This document shows positions 7,940 to 35,479 of a DNA stretch of 35,479 nucleotides, piece by piece. Both the position numbers and the translations under genes were made by a program. Every line of letters starts with the position of its first letter. Within the stretch, counting starts at the first letter, position 1. The stretch comes from Megasphaera paucivorans (GTDB lineage: Bacteria > Bacillota > Negativicutes > Veillonellales > Megasphaeraceae): positions 1 to 35,479 of the forward strand of contig NZ_FNHQ01000026.1 of assembly GCF_900103535.1 (NCBI RefSeq), written 5' to 3'. Under the pieces are notes generated by a model. The model did not search any database. It was not told where the DNA came from and saw only the letters and a list, made by a program, of their open reading frames with translations.

Positions 7940-7953
7940 TTAAAAAAGGGTAT

Positions 7954-7987
7954 AAAAAAAGATGATTCGTGAGAATCATCTTTTTTT
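7954..7987. terminator. Bidirectional terminator between ppsR and rpmB
   Basis: AAAAAAAGATGATTC pairs with GAATCATCTTTTTTT around a GTGA tetraloop. Runs of seven A and seven T make it functional for both convergent genes. Confidence 0.92.
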
Positions 7988-7995
7988 ATAATGGA

Positions 7996-14020: not shown

Positions 14021-15271
14021 ATGGAACATCTTTTGGATATCATCATGATACCCATCCAAGTAGTCATTGTGTTTTTTTCATTGTACTACTTTGTTCTGGC
14101 CATATTCGGCCTCATGAAAAAAAAAGAAAAGATTACCGTACCGCCGAAAAATTCCTTTGCGGCTGTTATATGTGCTCACAATGAAGCGTGTGTCATAGGT
14201 CCTCTTATCGACAATCTAAAGGAACTCCGGTATCCGAAAGACTTATTGGATATTTATGTGGTAGCCGATAATTGCAGTGATAATACAGCTGCTATCTGCC
14301 GCGAACGGGGCGCGATTGTGTACACGCGGGTTAATAAGGAACAGGTGGGTAAAGGATATGCGATGGACTGGATGTTTGATCAGCTGTTAAAGCAGGAAAA
14401 GCAGTATGATGCGTTTGTTGTTTTTGATGCAGATAATCTAGTTCATCCAGATTTTTTGCGGGAAATGAATAACCATTTATGTAAGGGTGAAAAGGTTATC
14501 CAAGGGTATATGGATGCTAAAAACCCAACAGATACATGGATTTCAGGAACTTTTTCCATTGCATTCTGGCTCATTAATCATATGTGGCATTTAGCAAAAT
14601 ATAATATTGGATTATCTACGGCTTTGGGCGGTACAGGCATGTGTATTGCAACGGAAATTGTGCGCAAGTATGGCTGGGGCTGTGACTGCTTGACCGAAGA
14701 TATGGAATTTTCTATGAAGGTACTGTTGGAGGGCGTACGTACGACTTGGGCTCATGATGCGATTATCTATGATGAAAAAGCACTAGGCTTTATGCAGTCC
14801 TGCAAACAGCGTAAAAGATGGGCTCAGGGGCAGTTTGACTGCGGAGAACGATTTATTCCCAAACTGTTTGCCCGCGGCATAAAAACGGGGAATATCCGTA
14901 TGCTTGACGGCATTATTACGTTATCGCAGCCATTTTTTATGCTCTTGTCTACATTTTATGTTTTCATGACGTATATTAATGCATATATTCCATGTTACAC
15001 GAATATACTATATCAGATTGTGCCTATCCAGATATGGACGATTATAGGTGTGGGACAATATTTGATTCCGATTATTGTGCTGCTGCAGATAAAAGTTCCT
15101 AAGAAGGCTTGGCTTTATCTGATTGTTTATCCGCTTTTTATGTACAGTTGGATTCCAGTGACATTTCTTGGCTTTAGAGACCGTCATAAAAAAGAATGGA
15201 GTCATACAAAACATATCCGGTCCATGGCATTTGAAGATGCGCAGGTAACTCGTAAAAACTTTAAAAAATAA
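14021..15271 (+). CDS. Membrane-bound family 2 glycosyltransferase
   Basis: A 416-residue processive-type GT2. One N-terminal membrane helix (~10-32), a cytoplasmic GT-A domain with CAHNEACVIG, the DAD nucleotide-sugar motif at 136-138, the TED at 225-227 holding the catalytic base and QRKRWAQGQ at 263-271 (the Q-x-x-R-W motif of cellulose/hyaluronan/poly-GlcNAc synthases), then three or four C-terminal membrane helices (~285-385). This architecture usually makes and exports a polysaccharide or glycosylates a lipid. The sugar and acceptor cannot be told from sequence. It lies between pssA and surE, 23 nt from pssA, in the lipid block; a glycolipid product is a possible reading but unsupported beyond position. 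Confidence 0.88.
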   Translation: MEHLLDIIMIPIQVVIVFFSLYYFVLAIFGLMKKKEKITVPPKNSFAAVICAHNEACVIGPLIDNLKELRYPKDLLDIYVVADNCSDNTAAICRERGAIVYTRVNKEQVGKGYAMDWMFDQLLKQEKQYDAFVVFDADNLVHPDFLREMNNHLCKGEKVIQGYMDAKNPTDTWISGTFSIAFWLINHMWHLAKYNIGLSTALGGTGMCIATEIVRKYGWGCDCLTEDMEFSMKVLLEGVRTTWAHDAIIYDEKALGFMQSCKQRKRWAQGQFDCGERFIPKLFARGIKTGNIRMLDGIITLSQPFFMLLSTFYVFMTYINAYIPCYTNILYQIVPIQIWTIIGVGQYLIPIIVLLQIKVPKKAWLYLIVYPLFMYSWIPVTFLGFRDRHKKEWSHTKHIRSMAFEDAQVTRKNFKK

Positions 15272-16382: not shown

Positions 16383-17770
16383 ATGAATCTGGAAGTACTG
16401 AATATGATCGACAATTTTGTATGGGGACCGCCATTATTGGTTTTGCTGGTTGGAACAGGAATATGGTTGTCTGTTCGACTGCATTTTTTACAGGTATTTA
16501 AATTACCGAAAGCACTGCATTTGATTTTTTCTGCTAAAAACAAAGGAGAAGGCGATATTGATAGTTTCAAAGCGCTGTGTACTGCGTTGGCGGCTACTGT
16601 GGGGACTGGCAATATCGTGGGGGTAGCGACAGCGATTCATGCCGGTGGACCGGGTGCTTTATTTTGGATGTGGATGGCTGCTTTCTTCGGAATGGCTACT
16701 AAATATGCCGAAGGGTTGCTTGCCGTTAAATATCGTACATTTGATGCAAATGGAAATATCGCCGGCGGACCTATGTTTTATATAGAACGAGGTCTTGGAA
16801 AAAAATATAAACCATTAGCTATTTTTTTGCTGTTGCGGGAGTATTAGTAGCTTTTTTTGGCATTGGGACTTTTGCACAGGTAAATTCTATTGTAGAAATT
16901 ACACAGCTTACGTTAGGCGTTCCCGTTATGTGGACGGCTGTTATTCTAACTGGCATTGTAGCCGCCGTTACGATCGGAGGATTGCAATCTATTGCCCGAA
17001 CAGCAGAAAAAATTGTTCCGGCTATGGCAATTATCTATTGTGCCAGTACGTTAGGATTCCTTATCATCTTCTACGATAAAATCCCGGCAGCTATTATTGA
17101 AATCATGACGGATGCATTTACGCCTACTGCAGCTACCGGCGGCTTTTTGGGAGCGACAGTAATGGTAGCTATGCGAAATGGGATTGCCCGAGGAGTATTT
17201 TCCAATGAATCTGGATTAGGCAGTGCACCGATTGTTGCGGCAGCGGCTAAAACCAAGTGGCCGGCTGAACAAGGTCTTATTTCGATGACAGGGACCTTTA
17301 TAGATACTATTATTATTTGTACGATGACGGGACTGGTTCTTGTGGTCAGCGGTCTCTGGAACGGAGACATGAACGGAGCAACGTTAACGCAAGGAGCGTT
17401 TCTTCAGGCTTTTCCGAATTTCGGCAGCATGATGCTGATGGTTGGGTTGGTATTGTTTGCTTTTACAACAATTCTTGGCTGGAATTATTATGGTGAACGC
17501 TGCTGCGAATATTTGGTTGGAGTTAAGGGGATTATGCCATACCGTATTATTTTTATTATGTTAGTTGCCTGCGGTGCTTTTTTGAAATTGGAAGCGATAT
17601 GGGTGCTTGCCGATATAGTTAATGGTCTTATGGCGATACCTAACTTAATTGCACTTCTCGGGTTAAGTGGTGTCGTCGTAAGTGAAACAAAAGCGTATTA
17701 TGCCCATTTAAAAGAAGAAAAAATGCAGACGCGCGTAACAGGTCGAATATCAGAAACCTTTAAAGAGTAA
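16383..17770 (+). pseudogene. AgcS-family sodium:alanine/glycine symporter, frameshifted
   Basis: Together the two reading frames encode a normal-length (~460 residue) AgcS symporter that imports alanine or glycine with Na+. The first part runs 16383-16847 and carries the signature [30 protein letters not shown] and [21 protein letters not shown]. After a run of seven T (16822-16828) this frame reaches a stop at 16845-16847. The other frame is open from 16829 and continues the family sequence ([21 protein letters not shown]...) to 17770. One extra T would restore a single frame. AAAAGGAG precedes the ATG. The break is either a sequence error, a true mutation, phase variation, or a site of slippage: T-TTT-TTG is also a possible -1 slippery sequence. 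The rest of the gene shows no decay. Confidence 0.9.
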
Positions 17771-17958: not shown

Positions 17959-18002
17959 ACATAAATAAAGGACATTCCAATCGGAATGTCCTTTATTTAT
18001 GT
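17959..18002. terminator. Long perfect hairpin terminator after tRNA-Leu
   Basis: Twenty base pairs, ACATAAATAAAGGACATTCC with its exact complement at 17983-18002, around an AATC loop. The lower stem supplies the A and T runs. It starts directly after the tRNA CCA end. Confidence 0.88.
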
Positions 18003-21343: not shown

Positions 21344-22081
21344 ATGAGTCAATCCCCCGAAGAAAATCAAGAAGTTTTGCAGGATGGGGAAGAAACGATG
21401 TCTCTTGTCAGTCATTTACAGGAATTTCGCCGACGGATTATCATTTGTATTGCTGCATTGTTTATTGCTAGTTCTGTCAGCTATATATATGCGGAAGAAT
21501 TGATAAAAATAATTTCCAGGCCTGTGGGAATGCTTTATTTTATGAATCCGGCGGAGGTGTTTTTTACGTATTTGAAAATTTCTGTTTTTGCCGGGTTCCT
21601 TATTTCACTTCCTGTTTTGGTATATCAGCTTTGGGAATTTGTTGTACCGGCTTTTACCCAGTCGGAACGCCGATTGGCATTGTTTTTAACACCAGCCTTT
21701 GTTTTGTTGTTTTATGCGGGAATTGTGTTTTCCTATATGTTTGTTCTTCCGGCAGGCGTGCGCTTTTTTTTGGGATTTGCTACAGATAGCTTGCAGCCTA
21801 TGTTTTCTTTGGGCTCTTATTTGTCTTTCGTTATCTCCTTTGTATTTCCCTTCGGTATTGTGTTTGAAATGCCGCTATGCTTGGTTATTTTAGCTAAAAT
21901 GGGATTTGTTAATTCCGCTTTTTTACGGCGCAAAAGAAAAATATGTATTCTTCTTTCTTTTGTTTTTGCCGCAATTATTTCTCCGACACCGGACGTATTT
22001 TCTCAAACAATGATTGCGGTACCTATGGTGCTTTTATATGAAATTAGTGTTATTTTGATACGGTATATTTTAAAAAAATAG
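21344..22081 (+). CDS. tatC: Sec-independent protein translocase subunit TatC
   Basis: A 245-residue polytopic receptor for twin-arginine signal peptides. A cytosolic N-terminal stretch contains MSLVSHLQEFRRRI, the conserved TatC motif for signal recognition (usual form LxxHLxELRxR). Six membrane segments follow, with VFFTYLKISVFAGFLISLPVLVYQLWEFVVPAFTQSERR and the PDVFSQ turn near the C-terminus. It is co-transcribed with tatA and ends at a terminator. No Tat substrate with an RR signal was recognised among the neighbours. Confidence 0.95.
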   Translation: MSQSPEENQEVLQDGEETMSLVSHLQEFRRRIIICIAALFIASSVSYIYAEELIKIISRPVGMLYFMNPAEVFFTYLKISVFAGFLISLPVLVYQLWEFVVPAFTQSERRLALFLTPAFVLLFYAGIVFSYMFVLPAGVRFFLGFATDSLQPMFSLGSYLSFVISFVFPFGIVFEMPLCLVILAKMGFVNSAFLRRKRKICILLSFVFAAIISPTPDVFSQTMIAVPMVLLYEISVILIRYILKK

Positions 22082-22095
22082 AAATCATGTTTATC

Positions 22096-22139
22096 CAAAC
22101 AGAGATTTATGGAACGAAGAATCCCTGTTTGTTTTTTTT
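22096..22139 (+). terminator. Rho-independent terminator after tatC
   Basis: CAAACAGAGATT pairs with AATCCCTGTTTG (one mismatch) around a 12-nt loop, followed by eight T. Confidence 0.85.
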
Positions 22140-22404
22140 CGCAAAAATACATGAATACAATGTATAAATAATTATGTATTTTTTTCATTATTATTTTTAA
22201 CTAAAATTAACAATTTTAATATTTTACATGAAATAATTTGTAATGGAAAAAATATATAAAAATTACCAAAATAAATTAAGAAAGTATCCGTATATTTGGA
22301 AAACTATAACTAGCGACGGATTTTGCCTTTTAATGATGTATAACTATTCTTTGTGTAAATACAAATTGTATACAGTATTAATGCAACGCAAGTAATAATC
22401 TTAC
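22140..22404. other. AT-rich intergenic region upstream of pyc
   Basis: No ORF or RNA gene recognised. The stretch is strongly AT-rich and leads to the pyc promoter; the whole tatC-pyc gap is 429 nt, the longest gene-free interval apart from the tRNA region. Confidence 0.4.
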
Positions 22405-22432
22405 TTGTAAAGTTACTATATTTTGGTATAAT
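22405..22432 (+). promoter_or_regulatory. pyc promoter
   Basis: TTGTAA (22405-22410), a 16-bp spacer and perfect TATAAT (22427-22432). Predicted transcript start about 22439, right at the edge of the inverted repeat that follows. Confidence 0.6.
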
Positions 22433-22438
22433 TAATTC

Positions 22439-22485
22439 CATAATGAAAAAATATGACAGGAATTTCTTGTCCAATTTTCATTATG
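22439..22485 (+). repeat. Long inverted repeat / hairpin in the pyc leader
   Basis: CATAATGAAAA (22439-22449) is exactly complementary to TTTTCATTATG (22475-22485). Inside it a second stem forms between GACAGGAA (22455-22462) and TTCTTGTC (22464-22471), with one G-U pair. No T-run follows, so it is not a terminator. It is placed at the predicted transcription start and 25 nt before the start codon, suited to be an operator for a dimeric repressor or a 5'-end RNA stem. Confidence 0.75.
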
Positions 22486-22510
22486 TGAAAATGAAGTGGA
22501 GGGACTTTGA

Positions 22511-25500
22511 ATGAAAAAAATTCGTTCGGTTTTAGTTGCAAATCGAGGGGAAATAGCAATTCGTGTTTTTCGGGCATGTAATGAACTGGGGATTCGTACG
22601 ATTGCTATTTATTCGAAAGAAGATTCGCTGTCGCTTCACCGGTTCCGTGCCGATGAATCTTATTTGGTAGGCGAAGGCAAAAAACCGGTCGATGCGTATT
22701 TAGACATCGAAGATATTATTAGAATTGCCCATGAACATGAAGTGGATGCCATTCATCCCGGCTATGGCTTTTTGTCGGAAAATGCCGACTTAGCAAAACG
22801 GTGTAATGAAGAAGGTATTATTTTTATTGGCCCGAAGGTTGAACATTTGGTTATGTTCGGGGATAAGATTAATGCACGTATTCAAGCTAAAAAGGCTGGA
22901 ATTCAATATATTCCCGGCAGTGATGGTCCCGTTACGGATTATTCTCAAGTTGAACAGTTTGCCAATGACTATGGCTTTCCTATTATGCTCAAGGCTGTTA
23001 ATGGCGGCGGCGGACGCGGCATGCGTATGGTTGCCAAACTGTCTGAATTGAGAGATGCATACGATAGAGCTAAATCAGAAGCAAAATTAGCTTTTGGCAG
23101 TGATCAAATATATTTGGAAAAATGTCTTGTTAATCCAAAACATGTAGAAGTACAGATTATCGGTGACGAATATGGCAATATTGTTCATCTTTTTGAACGA
23201 GATTGTTCTATCCAGCGTCGACATCAGAAGGTTGTTGAAATTGCACCGGCATTTTCATTGCCGGCATCGGTACGGCAGGGATTATGCAATGCTGCTTTGC
23301 AGATTATGAATAATGTAAAATATGTCAATGCCGGTACGGTAGAATTTTTGGTAACACCGGATAATAATTTTTACTTTATTGAAGTAAATCCGCGTGTGCA
23401 GGTTGAACATACGATAACAGAAATGATTACAGGTATCGATGTGGTTCAGACACAGATTAAAATAGCCGAAGGGTATGCGCTGGACAGCGATGAAATCGGT
23501 ATTCGCGGACAAGAATCTGTCCAATGCCGTGGGAATGCCATTCAATGCCGTATCACGACAGAAGATCCGATGAATAACTTTATGCCTGATTCCGGAAAAC
23601 TCATGGTATATCGCAGCGGCGGCGGTTTCGGCGTCCGTTTGGACAGCGGCAATGCATATACGGGAGCGGTTATAACTCCATATTATGATTCGCTGCTTGT
23701 AAAAGCAACAACCTGGGGATTGAGTCATGCCATTGCTGTGCAGAAAATGATTAGGACGCTGAAAGAATTCCGTATTCGTGGGGTGAAAACCAATATCGGA
23801 TTTCTTATCAATGTATTGAGTAATCCTCTTTTTGTTACGGGAGAATACAATGTAAACTTCATTGATGGACATCCGGAATTATTCAATCTTCCTGTCATTC
23901 ATGACCGTGGGACAAAACTTTTGAAATATATAGGAGAGACCACCATCAACGGCTATGCCGGCGGTCCGCAGGTCAAACCGCAGTTTGAAGCGTTGGAAAT
24001 GCCGGCGAAAGCGAAGCATGAATATCCGCAGGGGACAAAGCAGATTTTTGATTCCATGGGAGCTGAAAAATTCTCGAAATGGATTATGGATCAGAAAAAA
24101 GTTTTGTTTACGGATACGACGATGCGAGATGCGCATCAGTCTCTTTTTGCTACGCGTGTGCGGACGATTGACATGCTGCGGGTATTGGAAACTTCTTCAA
24201 AAAAACTGCCGAACTTCTTCTCCTATGAATGCTGGGGCGGTGCTACCTTTGATGTTGCATATCGGTTCCTTTACGAAGATCCTTGGGAACGGCTTCGCCA
24301 GATGAGAGAAAAAGCACCTAACATCCTGCTTCAAATGTTGATTCGTGGGGCGAATGCTGTTGGGTATACAAGTTATCCGGATAATGTGGTAAAACAGTTT
24401 GTGGAATTATCTGCGAAGAACGGTATTGATGTTTTCCGTATTTTTGATAGTTTAAACAGCCTTGATAATATGGCAGGTGCGATTCAGGCTGTTCGTGAAA
24501 CCGGAAAAATTGCTGAAGTTGCTTTATGTTATACAGGAGATATTCTTAACCCGGCTCGTCCGAAGTACAATTTAGATTATTATGTGACCATGGCGAAAGA
24601 ACTGCAAAAAGCAGGTGCTAATATTATTGCTATCAAAGATATGGCAGGTCTGCTGAAACCGGAAGCGGCATATTGTCTCGTTTCGGCATTGAAGGATGCA
24701 ATAGATCTTCCGATTCATCTCCATACGCATGAAGGTGCAGGTAATGCGGTATATTCACTGGCTCGTGCTATTGATGCGGGGGTTGATATTGTCGATGTTG
24801 CTTATTCTTCCTTTGCCAACGGTACCAGTCAGCCGAGCATGAACAGTCTGTATTATGCATTGAGCGGCAACGACCGCCAGCCTGATTTGGATATCGAAGC
24901 GATGGAAGAAATGTCGCGGTATTGGGCTACGGTTCGTCCCTATTATAAAGGGGTAGATAAAGCGGATCCCTATCCAAATACAGAAGTATATATGCATGAA
25001 ATGCCGGGCGGACAATTTTCGAATCTGCGTCAGCAGGCAAAAGCAGTAGGGCTGGGTGCTAAATGGAATGATATAAAGAAGATGTATCATCGTGTTAATA
25101 TGTTGTTTGGTGATATCATTAAAGTAACTCCTTCATCTAAAGTTGTCGGTGATATGACGTTATTTATGATTCAAAATAATTTGACGGAAGATGATATTTT
25201 TGAAAAGGGAGATATTCTCGATTTCCCGCAATCAGTAGTGGAATTCTTTGAAGGACGGATCGGCATACCGTATCAAGGTTTCCCAAAAGAATTGCAGAAA
25301 ATCATCTTAAAGGGAAGAGAACCGTTAAAAGAACGCCCTGGGAAAAGTTTGGTACCTGTAGATTTTGAAGTAGTACGCAAACAGTTGCAGGATGCGGGAT
25401 ATTTGCATGATGACGAAGCGATTAATGCATATTGCCAATATCCAAAGGTGTTCAAGGATTACAATGAAATTATTAAAAAATATGGAGATGTCAGTGTTCT

Positions 25501-25942
25501 GGATACACCTACCTTCTTCTTCGGCATGAACAAGAATGAAGAAATACGGGTTGAAATCGAAAAGGGGAAAGACCTGGTCATCAAATTGATTAATATCAGT
25601 GACCCTGATGAAAGCGGCATGCGGACGATTACCTTTATGTTCAATGGTGCAGAACGTGAAATCCAAGTTATGGATAAAAATGTTGACATGAAGACCGTAT
25701 CTCGTAAAAAAGCAGATCCGGATAAATTGGGAGATATTGGAGCGACCTTGTCCGGTTCCGTAGTAAAGGTACTGGTAGTTAAAGGACAAGCAGTCAAAAA
25801 AGGAGAACCCTTGGTTGTTACAGAAGCAATGAAGATGGAAACGACGATAACTTCTCCTATCAGTGGTACCGTTGGTGAAATTTATGCGACAAAAGGATTG
25901 CCGATTTTGAGCGGTGATTGCCTTTTGGAAGTAAATGAATAG
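22511..25942 (+). CDS. pyc: Pyruvate carboxylase
   Basis: A 1143-residue biotin enzyme forming oxaloacetate from pyruvate, bicarbonate and ATP. Domains in order: biotin carboxylase (~1-455, with HPGYGFLSEN, the glycine-rich ATP loop GGGGRGM and EVNPRVQVEHT), carboxyltransferase (~530-800, DTTMRDAHQS, GGATFDVAYRF, and IKDMAG followed by HLHTHE), the allosteric/PYC_OADA region (~820-1000) and the biotinyl domain (~1070-1143) with biotin attached to Lys1108 in EAMKMET. GGAGGG precedes the ATG. Full length (B. subtilis and others ~1145). It feeds oxaloacetate to gluconeogenesis and to the succinate/propionate branch used by many Negativicutes. Single-gene transcript with its own leader hairpin and terminator. 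Confidence 0.98.
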   Translation: MKKIRSVLVANRGEIAIRVFRACNELGIRTIAIYSKEDSLSLHRFRADESYLVGEGKKPVDAYLDIEDIIRIAHEHEVDAIHPGYGFLSENADLAKRCNEEGIIFIGPKVEHLVMFGDKINARIQAKKAGIQYIPGSDGPVTDYSQVEQFANDYGFPIMLKAVNGGGGRGMRMVAKLSELRDAYDRAKSEAKLAFGSDQIYLEKCLVNPKHVEVQIIGDEYGNIVHLFERDCSIQRRHQKVVEIAPAFSLPASVRQGLCNAALQIMNNVKYVNAGTVEFLVTPDNNFYFIEVNPRVQVEHTITEMITGIDVVQTQIKIAEGYALDSDEIGIRGQESVQCRGNAIQCRITTEDPMNNFMPDSGKLMVYRSGGGFGVRLDSGNAYTGAVITPYYDSLLVKATTWGLSHAIAVQKMIRTLKEFRIRGVKTNIGFLINVLSNPLFVTGEYNVNFIDGHPELFNLPVIHDRGTKLLKYIGETTINGYAGGPQVKPQFEALEMPAKAKHEYPQGTKQIFDSMGAEKFSKWIMDQKKVLFTDTTMRDAHQSLFATRVRTIDMLRVLETSSKKLPNFFSYECWGGATFDVAYRFLYEDPWERLRQMREKAPNILLQMLIRGANAVGYTSYPDNVVKQFVELSAKNGIDVFRIFDSLNSLDNMAGAIQAVRETGKIAEVALCYTGDILNPARPKYNLDYYVTMAKELQKAGANIIAIKDMAGLLKPEAAYCLVSALKDAIDLPIHLHTHEGAGNAVYSLARAIDAGVDIVDVAYSSFANGTSQPSMNSLYYALSGNDRQPDLDIEAMEEMSRYWATVRPYYKGVDKADPYPNTEVYMHEMPGGQFSNLRQQAKAVGLGAKWNDIKKMYHRVNMLFGDIIKVTPSSKVVGDMTLFMIQNNLTEDDIFEKGDILDFPQSVVEFFEGRIGIPYQGFPKELQKIILKGREPLKERPGKSLVPVDFEVVRKQLQDAGYLHDDEAINAYCQYPKVFKDYNEIIKKYGDVSVLDTPTFFFGMNKNEEIRVEIEKGKDLVIKLINISDPDESGMRTITFMFNGAEREIQVMDKNVDMKTVSRKKADPDKLGDIGATLSGSVVKVLVVKGQAVKKGEPLVVTEAMKMETTITSPISGTVGEIYATKGLPILSGDCLLEVNE

Positions 25943-25958
25943 TAGGGTAATATACAGT

Positions 25959-26000
25959 ACAAAACGCTGTCAAGGATGAAAATCCTGACAGCGTTTTTGT
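25959..26000. terminator. Bidirectional terminator between pyc and the MFS gene
   Basis: ACAAAACGCTGTCAAGGAT pairs with ATCCTGACAGCGTTTTTGT (one bulged base) around a GAAA loop, with T-rich ends on both strands. Confidence 0.88.
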
Positions 26001-31250: not shown

Positions 31251-32830
31251 AGTGGCACTATGTACTTGCCGTTATGTTGAGCGGACTCGTTCTCTTTAGT
31301 GCAGGATGTTCGACAGTAACTAAGCCGGACACTGTAAAATATGTGTTGGAAGCAGAACCTTCAAGCCTTGATCCGGCAATGACGACTACCTTGCCGGAAA
31401 ATAACACGGAACTGCAATTATTTGAAGGATTGACGCGTCTTGATGAACAGGATGATCCGCAGCCGGCATTGGCAGAAAGCTGGGATATTTCAGCAGATGG
31501 AACCATATATACGTTTCATCTTCGCAAAGGTATAAAATGGAGTGACGGTACACCCATTACTGCACAGGATTTTGAATATTCATGGAAACGGGTCGTTGAT
31601 CCTGATACAGCATCAGAAAATGCGTATATGATGTTTCCTATTAAGAATGCGGAGGCGTATTTTAATAGGAAAGCGGCGGCTGATGAAGTTGGGGTAAAAG
31701 CACTGGATGAACATACGCTGCAAGTACGATTGGCCTATCCTACTGCTTATTTTCTTAATCTGACAGCGGTACATTGTTATTATGCTGTACCACAAAAACT
31801 GGTGGAGGCGCATCCGCAAACATGGGCAGCGGATGCGAAAGGAATGATCTGCAGCGGACCATTTAAAATCACCAAGTGGATTCATTCCAGTGAAATAGAT
31901 TTTGAAAAAAATGAAAACTATTGGGATGCAAAGCATGTACGCCTATCTCATATGGAATTTCCCATCAGTGATTCACAGGCTACTCGACTTACGTTGGTAG
32001 AGAGTAATCAAGCTAATATGACAGTGGAGCCGCCGCCTGCAGATCAAACCCGGTTGGAGGAAGCCGGATTATATAAAGTGGCGCCTTATTTGGGAATTTA
32101 CTATTATGTATTTAATGTGACGAAACCTCCTTTTGATGATGTGCGCGTCCGTAAGGCATTTGCCTTATCGGTACAGCGGGAGGCACTCGTCCGGCATATT
32201 ATCCGCGGACAAAAACAGGCGGCCTATGCATGGGTTCCGCCGGGATTAAAAAATCCGGTTACAGGAAAAGATTTCCGTGAAGAAGGCGGAAATTTGATGA
32301 CGGAGGATGCGGTACAGGCACGAAAACTTTTGAAGCAGGCCGGCTATGATACCAATCATCCGTTGCCGGAAGTAACGATTCTTTTTAATACGAATGAAAT
32401 GCATAAGGCAGTGGCAGAAAGTTTACAGGCTATGTGGAAGAATGCATTAGGCGTACAAGTATCTTTAATGAATCAGGAATCAAAGGTGTTCATGGCAACG
32501 CGCAGTAAAGGAGACTATCAAATAGCTCGGGCCAGCTGGATAGCAGATTATATCGATCCGATGAGTTTTATGGAGGTATTCTCCGATGAGGAAAATGATG
32601 CGCAATATCATAATAAAACATATAATGAATTGATCCGCCAAGCTAAGGAAACAAATGATCCGGCGGTGCGTATGACCGACTTGCATCGAGCCGAACAAAT
32701 CCTTTTTGATGATTGTGTTATTATCCCCATATATTATACGACACAGCCCTATGCAGCGCAGCCTTATGTGAAAGGCTATCATTGGCTGCAGCTGGGCTTG
32801 GTCGATTTTAAGAAAGCATATATAGAATAG
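31247..32830 (+). CDS. Oligopeptide-binding lipoprotein (OppA/MppA-type, SBP family 5)
   Basis: A 527-residue extracytoplasmic solute-binding protein. The signal peptide ends in the lipobox FSAGC with the lipidated Cys21, then the SBP_bac_5 domain starting at VLEAEPSSLDPA, with the cluster-1 signature around GTIYTFHLRKGIKWSDGTPITAQDFEYSWKR and later NVTKPPFDDVRVRKAFALS. The ATG at 31247 overlaps the ATPase stop (ATGA) and lies 9 nt after GAGGAGG, which argues against the in-frame start at 31217. Its position after the ATPases is unusual since the binding protein is often first. Ligand is not readable; the downstream peptidases suggest peptides, possibly wall-derived. Confidence 0.94.
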   Translation: MKWHYVLAVMLSGLVLFSAGCSTVTKPDTVKYVLEAEPSSLDPAMTTTLPENNTELQLFEGLTRLDEQDDPQPALAESWDISADGTIYTFHLRKGIKWSDGTPITAQDFEYSWKRVVDPDTASENAYMMFPIKNAEAYFNRKAAADEVGVKALDEHTLQVRLAYPTAYFLNLTAVHCYYAVPQKLVEAHPQTWAADAKGMICSGPFKITKWIHSSEIDFEKNENYWDAKHVRLSHMEFPISDSQATRLTLVESNQANMTVEPPPADQTRLEEAGLYKVAPYLGIYYYVFNVTKPPFDDVRVRKAFALSVQREALVRHIIRGQKQAAYAWVPPGLKNPVTGKDFREEGGNLMTEDAVQARKLLKQAGYDTNHPLPEVTILFNTNEMHKAVAESLQAMWKNALGVQVSLMNQESKVFMATRSKGDYQIARASWIADYIDPMSFMEVFSDEENDAQYHNKTYNELIRQAKETNDPAVRMTDLHRAEQILFDDCVIIPIYYTTQPYAAQPYVKGYHWLQLGLVDFKKAYIE

Positions 32831-34951: not shown

Positions 34952-35479
34952 TGTAGGTTTGTCAAACATATGTTACACAGTAGCAAGAAAAGAACGAAGG
35001 ACTTCGTTAGGAGATTTCCAAGCCAGAGGACGCATAGGAAAATTATTGTATTCTCTACTACGTACTGCTAACTGTTTTTTGAAATCTGCAAAAGAATAAA
35101 AACGATGCTCCGCATAGAAGTACTCGTTGTCTTTTCGATGAGAGCGCTCTACCTTTCCGTTATGCCGCGGCGTATACGGACGTATTTTTTGATGGATAAT
35201 GTGATAGGCTACCAATTGTCGTTCAAACAGCGTGAGTTCCGCTGTCTTACTTCGACCAAATCGGTTGGTGAATTCAAAGCCATTGTCGGTTTGGATTTTA
35301 CAAATGGGAAACGAGAATCTTCGTACCAAGTGTTGGAGAAATATCGTGGAAGAATAGGTGCTCTGTTCTTGGAATGCTTCCAAATACCGAACGCGCGTAC
35401 ATTCATCGATAGCCGTGTATTGGTACATTCTTTCACCCAGCGCATGTGCCTGCCCCACGATGCAAGCAGAAGGAACTAC
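34952..35479 (-). mobile_element. 3' end of an IS481-type insertion sequence, cut by the window edge
   Basis: The stretch holds the C-terminal half of an IS481-type transposase and a terminal region with GGTTTGTCAA (34956-34965) that reads TTGACAAACC on the minus strand. The terminal segment 34952-34971 resembles an IS481-type end starting TGT. The other end lies outside the window, so the boundary is approximate. Confidence 0.65.
34973..35479 (-). CDS. IS481-family transposase, C-terminal part
   Basis: The reading frame is open from the window edge to a TAA at 34973-34975, with no start inside it that makes sense; the N-terminal half lies beyond the edge. Conserved DDE integrase core: first Asp in QYTAIDECTR, second in KIQTDNGFEFT and the Glu in RHNGKVERSHRKDNE. 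The C-terminal FYSFADFKKQL and NNFPMRPLAWKSPNEVL close the family domain. The protein cuts and pastes its own element. Upstream codons reading VVPSACIVGQAH match the stretch that normally precedes the catalytic core. Confidence 0.93.
   Translation of the reverse strand, partial: VVPSACIVGQAHALGERMYQYTAIDECTRVRYLEAFQEQSTYSSTIFLQHLVRRFSFPICKIQTDNGFEFTNRFGRSKTAELTLFERQLVAYHIIHQKIRPYTPRHNGKVERSHRKDNEYFYAEHRFYSFADFKKQLAVRSREYNNFPMRPLAWKSPNEVLRSFLATV

Follow-up and report, generated by a model that had tools for sequence, protein, structure and literature searches.

What is the function of the long inverted repeat that separates the promoter from the ribosome-binding site of the pyruvate carboxylase gene pyc in Megasphaera paucivorans? 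The window, that is, the whole stretch of 35,479 nucleotides analysed here, contains this repeat in the leader between tatC, located upstream, and pyc (22511–25942, 1143 amino acids, assigned from the open reading frame list and an identity check); the features of the pyc region described below lie on the forward strand. In line with the original prediction of eleven exact outer pairs, a repeat search and folding identified the 5′-arm CATAATGAAAA (22439–22449) and the 3′-arm TTTTCATTATG (22475–22485), which are complementary at 11 of 11 nucleotides (100%) and separated by 25 nucleotides. Enclosed between them is the inner hairpin GACAGGAATTTCTTGTC (22455–22471; GACAGGA-ATT-TCTTGTC), which as a DNA dyad shows Watson–Crick complementarity at seven of eight position pairs, the remaining one being G/T. 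The eight inner pairs that had been claimed are slightly generous, since the predicted RNA fold comprises seven, one of them G-U, around a loop of three nucleotides; the inner hairpin as such is present.

Dinucleotide shuffling of the 78-nucleotide leader produced a perfect 11-bp repeat with a loop of at most 40 nucleotides in 50 of 20000 cases, and the same procedure applied to the 429-bp intergenic region did so in 230 of 5000. Throughout the window, seven repeats reach 11 bp, mostly intergenic and terminator-like in appearance, where 0.35 are expected, and 11 reach at least 10 bp (1.2 expected); many of the latter also resemble terminators, but four fall within coding open reading frames (at 14072, 15663, 22551 and 31634). 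The segment 22435–22520 is predicted to fold with −21.4 kcal/mol (z −3.35; one of 200 shuffles was equally good), and the shorter segment 22440–22496 with −13.5 kcal/mol (z −3.32).

Upstream of the repeat we located a sigma-70-type promoter, TTGTAA-16-TATAAT with a TG preceding the −10 box (22405–22432; 10 of 12 in a promoter scan). The scan alone proves nothing, because it returned four promoter-like sites compared to 4.2 expected in shuffles. The same layout is found in 15 other family leaders, so that each of the 16 family pyc leaders compared has a TTGT-type −35 element, a 16-nucleotide spacer and TATAAT. Judged by the usual distance from the −10 box, transcription of pyc probably starts at about 22439/22440, a position that the 5′-arm contains or abuts. 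The outer stem begins at the seventh nucleotide past the −10 box and stops before the Shine–Dalgarno sequence of pyc; in the relatives, the 7-mer core of the arm starts 9 nucleotides (12 of 14 leaders) or 10 nucleotides (2 of 14) past this box. Folding of the leader of M. paucivorans predicts a weak GAAGU/ACUUU hairpin (22493–22508), the loop of which contains the Shine–Dalgarno sequence GGAGGG. A literature search on the transcript start of pyc in Veillonella yielded nothing, and a search on regulators of the Megasphaera pyruvate carboxylase, as far as the titles retrieved indicate, yielded none on pyc control.

The pyc gene is present in 60 of 60 genomes (M. paucivorans and 59 relatives). 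We compared its locus in 30 of them, namely M. paucivorans, 16 members of its family and 13 members of family f4 of the same order, and the numerical leader analysis covers the family leaders only (17 family genomes). In 16 of these 17 genomes, M. paucivorans included, pyc shares the promoter and a palindrome further upstream. In G001, the only congener, pyc is located approximately 200 bp downstream of citF (NCBIfam citF, 588.7 bits) and lacks the shared promoter, the upstream palindrome and the 5′-stem. This placement may reflect a relocation or a misassembly; given the different setting of pyc, the locus (L003) was excluded from the leader counts.

The minimum-energy folds of 14 of the 16 family leaders open with a local hairpin, the first pair of which involves leader nucleotide 2–5 and a partner at nucleotide 34–48; L016 and L017 do not. 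The z-scores of whole-leader folds against shuffles range from −3.86 to +1.04, with values of −1.5 or below in seven of 16 leaders and between −1.15 and +1.04 in nine. To localize the pairing, a 10-nucleotide piece of each of the 16 leaders was scored for pairing with the downstream leader against single-letter shuffles, with the leaders arranged by eye in eight groups of similar leaders and the p-values averaged within groups on a log scale, so that the combined Fisher values are approximate. They amount to 3.5e-4 at offset 0, 3.5e-6 at offset 3, 5.8e-3 at offset 6 and 1.5e-2 at offset 9, and to 0.36–0.98 at offsets 12–27. When the discovery sequence (L002) is left out, the values at offsets 0, 3, 6 and 9 are 5.7e-3, 6.8e-5, 1.3e-2 and 1.1e-2. 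The pairing signal is thus confined to the start of the leader (offsets 0–9) and is gone at offsets 12–27.

In a hand-drawn helix of seven pairs, with the arms picked by eye, 14 of 16 leaders show five to seven standard pairs out of seven (88 of 98 cells), five of these 14 rows being near copies; L015 and L017 do not have the arms and are absent from the table. Both-sided changes occur at pair 1 (CG/TA), at pair 2 (AT/GC) and at pairs 3 and 5 (GC/GT/AT), as exemplified by pair 5, an A-U pair in L010 but a G-C pair in L011. Pairs 6 and 7 display both-sided changes as well, but are broken in 4 of 14 and 3 of 14 leaders, respectively. Since the letters of the 5′-arm (CAGTGAA) are partly kept, the covariation rests on few changes. 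From two further tests L006 and L014, near copies of L007 and L013, were omitted. The 5′-arm test for individual leaders gave values below 0.05 in 5 of 14 (L002, L005, L008, L010 and L011). In the cross-leader test (n = 14), only L002, L010 and L011 pair better with their own partner than with any of the 13 others; 10–11 of the 13 foreign partners are equally good in the case of L015, L016 and L018. An alignment of the trimmed hairpins with MAFFT misplaced the arms and was discarded; a separate alignment (A1) was used solely to view the promoter and the Shine–Dalgarno sequence.

Taken together, a recurrent RNA stem at the start of the pyc leader appears likely but not proven from the comparison of these sequences and their predicted folds. 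The helix is kept in most leaders that share the promoter while its letters vary, a pattern suggestive of selection for the RNA fold. This bears out the suggestion of a 5′-terminal RNA stem, as the stem recurs at the same place in the relatives with changed letters and with G-U pairs. A lack of conservation in the pyc leaders of relatives had been named as the observation that would speak against the original prediction; the structure is in fact conserved, whereas the letters are not, and the only congener has not kept it either. Besides its absence in G001, the 5′-stem is different or absent in L015–L017.

Several observations on the relatives were made by eye. In L015 and L017 a G+C-rich inverted repeat, CCGCCCC...GGGGCGG, extends across the −35 region of the pyc promoter. 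In five members of family f4 (L019–L021, L023 and L026), the region upstream of pyc includes a stretch that contains GTATAC, and the pyc leader is short and devoid of the 5′-stem described above.

We consider it somewhat more probable than not that the pyc hairpin acts as a 5′-terminal mRNA stabilizer of the ompA/aprE type, a putative function that we infer together with the start site, the folding in the cell and the effect on mRNA lifetime. The pyc mRNA would start at about 22439/22440, so that its first nucleotides would be locked into the two-tier hairpin. This hairpin would offer no single-stranded 5′-end to 5′-end-dependent nucleases, and the Shine–Dalgarno sequence of pyc would stay outside the stem. 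The genome encodes, with profile scores above the cut-off, RNase E/G (452.7 bits), RNase Y (786.9 bits) and a TIGR00649 protein (639.3 bits; listed as MG423), which we take to be a member of the RNase J family. With these three proteins present in the genome, an exposed 5′-end would be expected to matter. The pyc stem would then belong to an already known kind of element. The leader of the E. coli ompA mRNA is longer and contains more stems. As is predicted for the pyc leader, the ompA mRNA is characterized by 5′-terminal base pairing (PMC3997798, PMC7509114), and no homology is claimed. The B. subtilis aprE mRNA is described as starting directly with a hairpin, as is predicted for pyc, and as having an important Shine–Dalgarno sequence downstream; loss of this stem-loop cut the stability of the mRNA from more than 25 min to approximately 5 min (PMC11805744). 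In contrast to aprE, the pyc stem belongs to a different gene, has different letters and is two-tier.

The inverted repeat of the pyc leader could also be read at the DNA level, as an operator for a dimeric repressor that would occupy the palindrome where transcription begins. A site at +1 would block initiation, and the dyad is long and perfect, but the repressor operator put forward originally did not hold up in the genome searches. The outer palindrome is a single site in its genome, where the proposed search for further copies retrieved no second one; with three mismatches allowed in the 17 family genomes, it was found once in M. paucivorans, twice in G001, where the full dyad is missing, and not in the 15 others, while the controls gave one match each in G007 and G004. 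The inner palindrome is no more common than its reversed control (11 versus 13 per strand with two mismatches). Furthermore, the letters of the stem drift in the relatives, some of its pairs there are G-U, which interrupts the dyad at the DNA level, and a better conserved operator-like palindrome is present at about −65. We therefore regard binding of a repressor to the stem as very unlikely, and a repressor operator at +1 was rejected, as neither the same palindrome at other genes nor conserved letters at the orthologues were found. The statement that the repeat is not a terminator is one with which we agree: downstream of the outer stem lies TGAAAATG, which contains no T-run, and downstream of the inner stem only CAATTTTC. 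An intrinsic terminator was likewise rejected, as a G+C-rich stem followed by a T-run is lacking, though a loose terminator scanner flags the inner hairpin together with CAATTTTCAT as terminator-like (one found, 0.1 expected). The same hit at 22455–22471 would suit a leader attenuator, in which the inner hairpin followed by CAATTTTC would act as a weak terminator in competition with the outer stem. The T-tract is broken, the hairpin has only three G-C pairs, and by eye L005, L007 and L010 carry no T-run right after the stem, which renders attenuation highly improbable. A search of 22000–22700 with the covariance models of Rfam 15 gave no match up to an E-value of 1, and hence no known leader family or riboswitch.

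Alternatively, the stem could guard translation. The 3′-arm (TTTTCATT) can also pair with AATGAAAA over the start codon of pyc, so that the 5′-arm would hold the 3′-arm away and its loss would close the start. Accordingly, an inverted repeat with 8 of 8 matches connects 22475–22482 and 22510–22517, and the AUG is predicted to be unpaired with a probability of 0.45, which drops to 0.27 when the 5′-arm is removed and to 0.20 when only the 3′-arm is left. The predicted accessibility of the Shine–Dalgarno sequence, on the other hand, hardly moves (0.54, 0.56 and 0.50), and in the seven relatives tried no uninterrupted contact between the 3′-arm and the start region exceeds five pairs, with contact energies of −2.1 to −5.6 kcal/mol compared to −6.0 kcal/mol in M. 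paucivorans. Moreover, ATGAAAAAA starts are rich in A, and the match may therefore be due to chance. A start-codon switch was not seen in these seven relatives and was rejected; we assign the guard a small chance of being correct. A further reading holds that the pairing is incidental, either because the initially transcribed DNA is constrained, with CAGTGAA at about +2 to +8 being kept for promoter escape, or by chance. The 5′-arm is indeed better kept than the 3′-arm, the congener G001 does without the stem, and another 11-bp repeat of the window (31634–31672) sits inside a coding open reading frame, so that such repeats do arise elsewhere. Given the position-specific pairing signal, which without L002 still reaches a p-value of approximately 7e-5, and the both-sided changes in the helix, we judge incidental pairing to be unlikely. 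The preferred reading remains a 5′-terminal stabilizer.

A better candidate for an operator than the stem is, as judged from its conservation, the palindrome TTGTATACAGTATTAAT at 22366–22382, 57–73 bp upstream of the stem and centred at about −65 from the presumed start, which is located upstream of pyc in 16 of the 17 family genomes. Transcription of pyc would more likely be governed by this conserved palindrome than by the stem. The distance between the TTGTATACAGTATTTAT-like palindrome and the −10 box of pyc is 60–61 bp in 13 of 16 leaders and 51–52 bp, about one helical turn shorter, in the other three (L015, L016 and L017), which are also the leaders with the weakest or a different 5′-stem. 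Loci resembling TTGTATAC-N-GTATWCAA besides pyc were noted at L047, L048, L080, L069–L071, L073, L079 and L089, and further at L054, L055, L083, L085 and L077. Palindrome sites precede gdhA in M. paucivorans (NADP-specific glutamate dehydrogenase, 758.3 bits) and in G001, aspA in M. paucivorans (L080; 654.4 bits) and, on the basis of the first residues only, aspA in G005, G008, G010, G011, G013 and G016. They also stand before class I/II aminotransferases (L054 and L083 by Pfam, L055 by likeness), a sodium:alanine symporter (L085) and an amino-acid permease (L077). In total, 14 of the 23 palindrome loci inspected, which comprise 6 + 15 + 2 loci and are not a systematic sample, are located upstream of amino-acid genes.

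With two mismatches, the 17 genomes contain 48 matches to the pyc form of the palindrome, compared to 27 for reversed controls; the sites at pyc account for 16 of the 48. For the TTGTATACAGTATTCAA form with three mismatches the numbers are 194 and 122, with palindromes counted twice and six matches in G005 representing copies of one sequence. The symmetric form is not above control in the genome of M. paucivorans (30 versus 43 per strand). Thus, with the pyc sites excluded, the counts are little or not above the reversed controls, and in the absence of genome-wide enrichment the candidate regulon rests on the genes behind the sites. It is possible that TTGTATAC-N-GTATWCAA marks an uncharacterized regulon comprising pyc, aspA, gdhA, aminotransferases and transporters, though one not enriched genome-wide; the titles and abstract openings retrieved for the TTGTATAC element contain no description of such a regulon. 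A bolder proposal, which we deem distinctly unlikely, is that the pyc hairpin represents a regulatory RNA of the Megasphaera family, the opening of which, or its occupancy by a protein, a small RNA or a metabolite, would set pyc expression together with an uncharacterized transcription factor reading TTGTATAC-N-GTATWCAA at pyc, aspA, gdhA and aminotransferase genes.

Pyruvate carboxylase supplies oxaloacetate to fermentation and to amino-acid pathways, and the recurrent 5′-stem and the operator-like site that pyc has in common with aspA and gdhA provide two concrete handles on the control of pyc. Because RNase E/G, RNase Y and an RNase J family protein are encoded together in this genome, a defined 5′-terminal stem could help to tell which 5′-end-dependent route of decay matters there.

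Some further features of the window were observed. Long perfect intergenic inverted repeats at 17959–18002, 7951–7990, 1562–1606 and 25961–25997, the last of which stands after pyc, are probably terminators. By eye, the open reading frames 16383–16847 and 16928–17770 appear to encode consecutive parts of one sodium:alanine symporter and may represent a broken gene, and the open reading frame 34973–35458 at the end of the contig has the appearance of a transposase fragment with an integrase core.
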